From NCBI GenBank assembly GCA_947499145.1, contig CANMNB010000007.1:62001-126000 (forward strand): DNA of 64,000 bases. Direction: 5' to 3'. Positions 29,667 to 32,015 of this stretch are shown here, piece after piece (position 1 is the stretch's first letter; every line of letters begins with the position of its first letter). The stretch comes from an uncultured Arachnia sp. Lineage in GTDB: Bacteria; Actinomycetota; Actinomycetes; Propionibacteriales; Propionibacteriaceae. Position numbers and translations under genes: made by a program. The notes beneath the pieces are model-generated. The model was not told the origin of the DNA and did not search any database. It worked only from the letters and a program-made list of their open reading frames with translations.

Positions 29667-29724
29667 CGTCCATGCCGGCCGAGACGGTGAACGGCCCGGA
29701 GGGCGGCCGGTATTGTGGCTGCTC

Positions 29725-30915
29725 GTGAAGGTGCTGCTGCTTGAGAACATCCACTCCGAGGCCCATCGCGTGCTCACCAGCCGCGGGTACGACGTGACCA
29801 ACGTCGGCAGCGCGCTGGCCGAGGACGAACTCATCGAGGCGCTCGACGGGGTCGATTTCCTGGGCATCCGGTCGCGGACCTACATCACTCGCCGCGTGCT
29901 CGAGTCGGCACCGCAGCTCAGCGCCATCGGCGCCTTCTGCATCGGCACCAACCAGATCGACCTCGGCGCGGCCGCGGACCGCGGCGTCGCGGTGTTCAAT
30001 GCGCCGTATTCCAACACCCGCTCCGTGGTGGAACTTGCCATCGCGGAGATCATTTCGATGGCTCGCCACCTGACCGATCGCAACGCCGACATGCACGCGG
30101 GTGTCTGGGACAAGACGGCCATCGGCTCGCACGAGGTGCGTGGCCGGACGCTGGGCATCGTCGGATACGGCAACATCGGCTCCCAGTTGTCGGTGATGGC
30201 CGAGGCCCTCGGGATGCACGTGTACTTCTACGACCTCGTCGATCGACTGGCGCTCGGCAACGCGCGCCGCGTCAACTCTCTCGAGGAGTTGCTGGAGGTC
30301 TCCGAGACCATCTCGCTGCACGTCGACGGCCGCGCGAGCAACGCCGGCCTGTTCGGTGCGGAGCAGTTCGCCCAGATGCGTCCCCGGTCGCTGTTCCTCA
30401 ACCTGTGCCGCGGCAACGTCGTCGACCACGACGCCCTCCACGACAACCTGGTCAGCGGACACATCGCTGGTGCCGCGATCGACGTGTTCCCGACCGAGCC
30501 CAAGGCGAAGGGCGAGGAATTCGTCTCCAAGCTCCGAGGGCTGCCCAACGTCATCCTCACCCCGCACATCGGCGGCTCCACCCAGGAGGCCCAGGTCGAC
30601 ATCGGTCGTTACGTCGCGGGCAAGTTGGCCGACTACGACGCGCACGGGACGACGTCGATGTGCGTCAACCTGCCCGAGGTCGCGGCCCCGGCCCCGGCCG
30701 AGCAGCGAGTCGTGCACCTGCACCACAACGTGCCCGGCGTCATGGCGCGCCTGAACCAGGCACTCGCCAACCACGACATGAACATCGGCGCCCAGACACT
30801 GGCAACGCGCGGACTGCTCGGTTACGCGGTGACCGACATCGCGGGGGAGCACTACGACGGTCTGATGGCTGAGCTGGAGGGGCTCGACGAGACCATCCGC
30901 GTGCGCGTCATCTGA
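29725..30915 (+). CDS. serA: D-3-phosphoglycerate dehydrogenase (short, E. coli-type with C-terminal ACT domain)
   Basis: KVLLLENIHSEAHRVLTSRGYDVTNV...GAFCIGTNQIDLGAAADRGVAVFNAPYSNTRSVVELAIAEI...LTPHIGGSTQEAQVDIGRYVAGKL...ACT-like VVHLHHNVPGVMARLNQALANHDMNI. Confidence 0.93.
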   Translation: MKVLLLENIHSEAHRVLTSRGYDVTNVGSALAEDELIEALDGVDFLGIRSRTYITRRVLESAPQLSAIGAFCIGTNQIDLGAAADRGVAVFNAPYSNTRSVVELAIAEIISMARHLTDRNADMHAGVWDKTAIGSHEVRGRTLGIVGYGNIGSQLSVMAEALGMHVYFYDLVDRLALGNARRVNSLEELLEVSETISLHVDGRASNAGLFGAEQFAQMRPRSLFLNLCRGNVVDHDALHDNLVSGHIAGAAIDVFPTEPKAKGEEFVSKLRGLPNVILTPHIGGSTQEAQVDIGRYVAGKLADYDAHGTTSMCVNLPEVAAPAPAEQRVVHLHHNVPGVMARLNQALANHDMNIGAQTLATRGLLGYAVTDIAGEHYDGLMAELEGLDETIRVRVI

Positions 30916-30987: not shown

Positions 30988-31163
30988 CGAAAATCGATCA
31001 CTGATCGATTCTCCCCCGTGTGCCCGCGACAATCGATCACTGATCCCTCTCGAGACGCCCGGGTAGGTACCGTCGCCGTCGTCGAGGTCACCGTCGAAAC
31101 CCCGCACTCTCCGTTCACTTTTTTGAGGTGGACGGGGGAAGATCGATCAGTGATCGATTTTCG
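30988..31163. repeat. Intergenic inverted-repeat element with three copies of a palindromic motif
   Basis: Left arm 30988-31019 CGAAAATCGATCACTGATCGATTCTCCCCCGT; right arm 31132-31163 is its reverse complement with 2 mismatches; additional copy AATCGATCACTGATC at 31031-31045. Confidence 0.9.
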
Positions 31164-31191
31164 GAAGCGGGGTGAAGCCCGACGGCGGGGT

Positions 31192-31217: not shown

Positions 31218-32015
31218 TCAGCGGCTGGCTCGGAGGGCGTCCAGTACCACCGGGTGGAGCGCGCCGTTGGTGGCGACGGCACCAGGGCCCCACGGGCCGT
31301 CCTGGCCCTCGAGGTTGGTGAACGTCCCGCCGGCCTCGCGCACGATGATGTCGAGGGCTGCCATGTCGTAGAGCTCGAGGTCGGGCTCGCAGGCGATGTC
31401 CACGGACCCCTCGGCAACGAGCATGTAGCTCCAGAAGTCTCCATAGGCGCGGCTGCGCCAGCACTCCCGCATCAGGTCGACGAAGCCCTGGCCGCGCCCG
31501 GAGTCCACCCACTCGCCGACGTCCGAGTACGACATCGACGCGTCCTGCAGCGAACCCACCTTGCTGACCCGGATCTCGCTCGCGTTGAGGATGGAGCGCC
31601 CGGTGAACGCGCCGTCCCCGCTGCTGGCCCACCACCGGCGGCCGAGCGACGGTGCGGAGACCACGGCAGCGGCGATCTCATCCTCCACCTGGAGGGCGAT
31701 CAGGGTGGCCCAGACGGGCACGCCGCGCAGGTAGTTCTTGGTGCCGTCGATGGGGTCGATGATCCAGCGTCGGTCGCTCTGGCCGGTGTCGTCGAACTCC
31801 TCGCCGTGGACCGCGTCGCGCGGGCGGGTCCGTGAGAGCGTGCGCCGGATGGCCTCCTCGATGGCCGTGTCGGTCTCCGTGACCGGCGTGGCGTCGGGCT
31901 TCGTGTTCACCTGCAGGTCGAGGGCCTTGAACCTGTTCATGGACAACGAGTCGGCGTCGTCGGCCATGAGGTGCATCAGCCGGAGATCATCTGTGAGCGC
32001 TTTGGAGCGGGCCAT
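31218..32015 (-). CDS. hisN: Histidinol-phosphatase, inositol monophosphatase family
   Basis: MARSKALTDDLRLMHLMADDADSLSMNRFKALDLQVNTKPDATPVTETDTAIEEAIR...RWIIDPIDGTKNYLRGVPVWATLIAL (IMPase motif DPIDGT). Confidence 0.88.
   Translation of the reverse strand: MARSKALTDDLRLMHLMADDADSLSMNRFKALDLQVNTKPDATPVTETDTAIEEAIRRTLSRTRPRDAVHGEEFDDTGQSDRRWIIDPIDGTKNYLRGVPVWATLIALQVEDEIAAAVVSAPSLGRRWWASSGDGAFTGRSILNASEIRVSKVGSLQDASMSYSDVGEWVDSGRGQGFVDLMRECWRSRAYGDFWSYMLVAEGSVDIACEPDLELYDMAALDIIVREAGGTFTNLEGQDGPWGPGAVATNGALHPVVLDALRASR

Follow-up and report, generated by a model that had tools for sequence, protein, structure and literature searches.

An intergenic, REP-like palindromic repeat family in some Tessaracoccus genomes and the insertion sequences at its palindrome centers

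INTRODUCTION

Repetitive extragenic palindromes (REPs) and their targeting by insertion sequences have mostly been described from Proteobacteria, where they are tied to RAYT transposases. In the 64,000-nucleotide stretch of actinobacterial DNA analyzed here (the window), the gap between the convergent genes serA and hisN contains several copies of a palindromic sequence in direct and inverted orientation. An earlier note on this DNA proposed a lineage-specific REP- or MITE-like element, a chromosome-organization site, or a set of operators. We asked what these palindromes are.

RESULTS

Two repeat units face each other between serA and hisN. The 19-bp dyad reported at 30992 to 31010 and its inverted copy at 31142 to 31158 proved to be exact palindromes at these positions. 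The shortened copy at 31031 to 31045 is also present, starting at 31031 to 31032 with 2 mismatches in the 17-mer motif, and the 32-bp arms (30988 to 31019 and 31132 to 31163) are mutual reverse complements save for two adjacent positions. The background had rightly been called very GC rich (window GC content, 0.70). Allowing up to 3 mismatches, the 17-mer matched the window 3 times versus 0.10 times expected, a number reached by 0 of 100 shuffles. The features of the junction are as follows.

29713 to 30915, plus strand: serA, D-3-phosphoglycerate dehydrogenase, convergent with hisN (gene call)
30988 to 31043, plus strand: unit 1, with the 25-bp palindrome GAAAATCGATCACTGATCGATTCTC at 30989 to 31013, the spacer, and the start of the half-site (nhmmer with the family profile, 55 bits)
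31028 to 31052, plus strand: second, partial copy in unit 1, the half-site at 39-nt spacing with its right arm decayed (repeat family D1)
31112 to 31164, minus strand: unit 2, with the palindrome at 31138 to 31162 and a decayed half-site (nhmmer, 47 bits)
30989 to 31162, no strand: head-to-head unit pair of about 174 bp (inverted repeat I1 and fold)
31218 to 32015, minus strand: hisN, histidinol-phosphatase-like (gene call; syntenic partner of serA in most relatives)

Unit 1 lies 73 bp from the end of serA. Inverted repeat I1 of the pair has 39-nt arms that are 87% complementary, and the region is predicted to fold into a long hairpin (z = -5.08). The earlier note did not recognize that the unit is directional, with a third half-site at 39 nt, or that the palindrome serves as an insertion sequence target.

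The palindromes form a multicopy intergenic family. A motif unique to this locus would have pointed to chance or a decayed sequence, and one of the window copies, the partial second one, is indeed degraded. However, a search of the window's own genome (G000; 2.88 Mb in 26 contigs) returned many copies, with 52 sites for the 17-mer at 1 mismatch or fewer and 71 at 3 or fewer, versus 0 for the reversed control pattern. Chance or decay at one locus is refuted by this difference, and its probability is practically nil.

A profile search over motif-carrying loci resolved 62 palindromes in this genome, mostly inside a directional unit of about 80 nt that comprises a 25-bp palindrome, a spacer of about 14 nt, and a third half-site. 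The palindrome itself consists of two facing half-sites around a one-base center, with a stem of 11 to 12 bp, and the third half-site lies 39 nt from it, center to center. The unit consensus is CCCCTTCC-GAAAATCGATCASTGRTCGATYTTC-CCCCGTCCGCTTCC-GAGAATnnnnCACTGACCCCC..TTTTGCCACC, of which the first conserved block is the palindrome and the last is the third half-site. Many units are single; where they are paired, they are nearly always arranged head to head, spanning about 110 to 175 bp in total. Such pairs were found in the window, at about ten further loci of the same genome, and in the related genome G034, and with their inverted arrangement and short spacing they qualify as REPINs or BIMEs.

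The intergenic bias that the earlier note had suggested looking for is pronounced, as 61 of the 62 palindromes lie between genes predicted by a codon-usage script. Flanking genes are in tandem at 26 palindromes, divergent at 16, and convergent at 13; six palindromes at contig ends or without a called neighbor were left unclassed, and the single intragenic one is in a called gene whose start is possibly misplaced. Being short, palindromic, multicopy, and extragenic, these sequences are REPs in the broad sense. The same placements bear on whether the units act as bidirectional transcription terminators or mRNA 3'-end stabilizers. A hairpin between A/T tracts and the location of the window copy between convergent genes would suit such a role, but 16 of the 55 classified sites separate divergent genes, where no neighboring transcript ends, and the stems are AT rich. 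The divergent-gene sites disfavor a terminator function, as intrinsic terminators would be placed at transcript 3' ends. A terminator role is unlikely, and we give the reading as a whole very little credence.

The family is patchily distributed in Tessaracoccus. Of 40 Tessaracoccus genomes, 7 matched the relaxed pattern AATCGNNCANTGNNCGATT (control, 0), with 100 exact palindromes in T. bendigoensis (G010), 45 in G011, 36 in the window's own genome, 26 in G034, 17 in G020, 6 in G007, and 2 in G015; the remaining 33 contained none. In other genera of the same bacterial family a related pattern was almost absent (0 to 1 per genome). A 24-mer scan of 84,980 species, from which the window's own genome was possibly left out, matched five contigs of T. 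bendigoensis and, once each, three unrelated genomes, and a plasmid collection searched with the unit gave no match. Within the collections scanned, the family is essentially confined to some Tessaracoccus. Its occurrence in 7 of 40 genomes, together with 61 intergenic palindromes out of 62, supports the proposal of a lineage-specific, REP- or MITE-like dispersed element. Our literature search found no relevant description of REPs in Tessaracoccus.

The palindrome arms differ by species (GATCA/TGATC, GACCA/TGGTC, or GGCCA/TGGCC), and the 39-nt half-site spacing is constant. Four carriers were included in a serA+hisN tree and require three changes on it, so the carriers are not one clade; G019 and G028, the sisters of T. 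bendigoensis on this tree, have zero copies. Unit arrangement also varies, since T. bendigoensis has direct tandem arrays with a period of 83 to 94 bp (loci L206, L208, L210, and L211), where the window genome has head-to-head pairs. Sequences that are likewise repeated and look palindromic, GACCCTTCGAGACGGCC... and TTGAGCCTGTCGAAACGCCCTGAGCG..., were seen in the serA-hisN gap of G030 (L238) and near position 2,940,000 of G020 (L290); they have the look of additional dispersed repeat families within Tessaracoccus.

Half-site conservation suggests recognition by a protein. Among the units of the window's own genome, the center base is associated with the intact arm (23:2 versus 0:9; Fisher p about 1e-6 over copies that are not independent). 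When one palindrome arm varies, the center base usually makes the other arm read AATCGATCAGTG. In the third half-site, GARAAT and CACTG are kept and the four bases between them vary. From these patterns we infer that the half-sites are, or were, recognized by a protein, which may be a past mobilizer, a current transposase, or a host protein; the association of center base and arm could also be produced by family history.

The units might accordingly be read as binding sites for a nucleoid-associated or regulatory host protein, in which case a dimer would occupy the palindrome and a third subunit the 39-nt half-site. Three half-sites at fixed spacing in the carrier species, the conserved half-site flanks around four variable bases, the link between center base and intact arm, and arms that change together between species all speak for such sites. 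Against this, the repeat is missing from 33 of 40 congeners and the carriers are not one clade, copy number ranges from 2 to 100, and units are found in all gene arrangements without following an orientation rule. We consider host-protein sites rather unlikely. The chromosome-organization and operator candidates of the earlier note are weakened by the same patchy distribution and retain only a part of their plausibility. A parS-like chromosome-organization site, for which genus-wide conservation would be expected, was rejected with 33 of 40 genomes lacking the repeat, and a universal role of this type is unlikely.

Most units stay in place between sister genomes. In most relatives serA and hisN are convergent neighbors separated by a gap of mostly 6 to 80 bp without a unit; here the gap is 309 bp with two units, and in T. 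bendigoensis it is 159 bp with one. The automatic parse failed to yield a usable gap in G019, G021, and G024, and in G011 and G014 no serA was detected beside hisN. Gap length alone is no proof of unit gain, since G028, G030, G022, and G029 have long gaps filled with other sequence. The simplest reading is that units were added at this junction, with loss elsewhere as the possible alternative.

The sister genomes G020 and G034, which are about 96% identical, have most units in common and in place, so unit movement (or loss) is slow at present. A head-to-head pair at 2149783 to 2149914 of G020 is missing from G034, with ambiguous edges, and one array in G034 has an extra 85-bp tandem unit. The comparison did not reveal a clean target duplication for the unit itself. 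Between 96%-identical genomes (L285, 2552127 to 2552228, versus L293, 525903 to 526005), units are kept in position and sequence amid intergenic DNA that has strongly diverged, both on their flanks and in the stretches from one unit to the next.

These data also bear on the idea that the family is a MITE, moved by a DDE transposase that reads the units as terminal inverted repeats. The nearly invariable head-to-head orientation of pairs of about 110 to 175 bp resembles inverted repeats, and the distribution is patchy and amplified. However, many units are single, and a clear target duplication is lacking at the one pair that differs in presence between the sister genomes. Transposase genes with matching ends do not recur beside the units, and the ends of both insertion sequences described below are unlike the unit. 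A MITE is, in our assessment, decidedly unlikely.

Searches for a mobilizer returned no candidate. RAYT (Y1_Tnp, PF01797) was detected in 0 of 37 Tessaracoccus genomes, with E. coli and four other controls positive; in the window's own genome, five small contigs that read N were outside the search. All-against-all BLASTP of genes near units yielded only ordinary genes and the IS481-like transposase described below as recurrent neighbors, and neither a candidate mobilizer nor a transposase with matching ends recurred beside units.

An IS3-like element occupies the palindrome center. Three contigs of the window's own genome end within a palindrome. An unbiased whole-genome search with both ends of the element responsible identified 12 places, six per end, all at or near contig ends.

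Contig ends with the element: C3, C4, C12, C18, C21, C22 and C2, C8 (both ends), C10, C11, C19

All 12 junctions coincide with the exact palindrome center, reading ...CGG or ...CCG followed by A[C/G]TGNTCGAT. The insertion sequence thus sits at a fixed point of the palindrome, as is typical of IS1397-type targeting. Three copies are inserted in each orientation relative to the unit. The junctions imply a 3-bp target duplication, ACT or AGT; the center bases on both sides can be matched for five of the six copies, and the one mismatched copy could derive from recombination.

A C-terminal peptide at one element end aligned over 41 amino acids (aa) with 41.5% identity (E = 0.06) to an rve-type transposase of Kocuria, which carries rve and rve_3 domains; the peptide alone had no match in Pfam. 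On the moderate evidence of this peptide and the implied 3-bp duplication, we named the element, a multicopy DDE insertion sequence, IS3-like. Its copies break the G000 assembly. The full sequence is absent from the readable contigs, that is, all but the five small contigs that read N, and the recovered ends stop at contig ends. A 77-nt sequence shared by C10, C22, and C1 (positions 1 to 77 of each) is also found at contig ends and in many Tessaracoccus genomes; it is probably the end of another mobile element and interrupts the IS3-like end in C10.

An IS481-like element uses the same point in G034. Units of this genome contain a gene for a 430-aa transposase (rve and rve_3 domains) in three copies, a biased sample because they were drawn from loci chosen for having units. 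Based on its ends and the duplication length, we take the element to be IS481-like.

2312.7 kb: IS481-like insertion (L136, L300)
1948.6 kb: IS481-like insertion (L299)
2734.5 kb: IS481-like insertion (L302)

The copies are flanked by 14-bp target duplications (GGGGAGAATCGACC, TGGTCGATTCTCCT, and GGGAGAATCGATCA), each bounded by the palindrome center to within 1 bp on either side. Sister genome G020 has units at the corresponding places without the element.

DISCUSSION

The repeat family is dispersed, intergenic, patchy, and homogenized within each species, and the IS3-like element sits at the palindrome center in every copy found. We consider it likely that the pair in the window belongs to a noncoding, REP-like family that is mainly selfish or neutral, is not mobilized by RAYT, and offers its palindromes as landing sites to insertion sequences. 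The units would be tolerated as DNA between genes; transposases may recognize the palindrome, or a cruciform or hairpin formed by it, which would make it a preferred and harmless landing site, as E. coli REPs are for IS1397. The mobilizer of the units, if any is still active, could be lost. Counting against this explanation, most units are common to G020 and G034 and no clean unit target duplication was found. Furthermore, the link between center base and arm and the kept half-site flanks also fit a specific DNA-binding protein that is not necessarily a transposase.

A more far-reaching version is that a RAYT-less actinobacterial family is spread by an enzyme reading three half-sites at fixed spacing and provides IS3-like and IS481-like elements with shared, safe landing sites that spare genes. 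This is possible but doubtful. A RAYT-less family with 100 copies in one species that is undetected in its sisters is a clean case for studying how repeats spread, and for asking whether repeats shelter genes from insertion sequences. It also brings to light two candidate site-specific DDE transposases with a common target.

Like the REPs or palindromic units of Proteobacteria (including REPINs and BIMEs), these repeats are short, extragenic, present in tens to hundreds of copies, single or head to head, homogenized within a genome, and targeted by insertion sequences. Unlike them, they have a longer palindrome with a one-base center, an extra half-site at 39 nt, no GTAG, and no RAYT found in the genus. 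The consensus of 49 units reads CCCCTTCC before and CCCCCGTCC after the palindrome, without the unpaired GTAG at the stem end that defines the GTAG super-family, and a GTAG/RAYT-type REP was rejected with RAYT in none of the 37 genomes. Rfam covariance models gave no match at E values up to 1.

CGTC-tagged REPs are defined by a CGTC that is unpaired and directly adjoins one end of an 8- to 9-bp stem, and the phyla listed for them do not include actinobacteria (Di Nocera 2013, PMC3733652). The present family is similar in being REP-like, without a dedicated transposase, and mostly in head-to-head dimers. However, its CGTC is set off from the palindrome by about 5 nt and is on the opposite side, the stem differs in sequence and length (11 to 12 bp), and other carrier species have GGTCC or TGTCT at this position, so membership in the CGTC super-family was rejected.

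Specific insertion into palindromes is known for IS1397 and ISKpn1 (IS3 family), which insert into REPs of Enterobacteriaceae, and further REP-targeting insertion sequences are ISPsy8, ISPpu9, ISPpu10, and ISRm22 (PMC1525189). The palindrome described here serves as a specific insertion target in the same manner, in a different host phylum and with a different sequence. Two different DDE elements in two species use the same central point, and IS481 is not among the five families named in PMC1525189. Untagged REP-like sequences have been mentioned for M. tuberculosis and D. radiodurans (PMC3733652); going by their description, they are likewise REP-like without conserved end motifs. The repeats described here are best classified as a REP-like family that is new, untagged, and RAYT-less.
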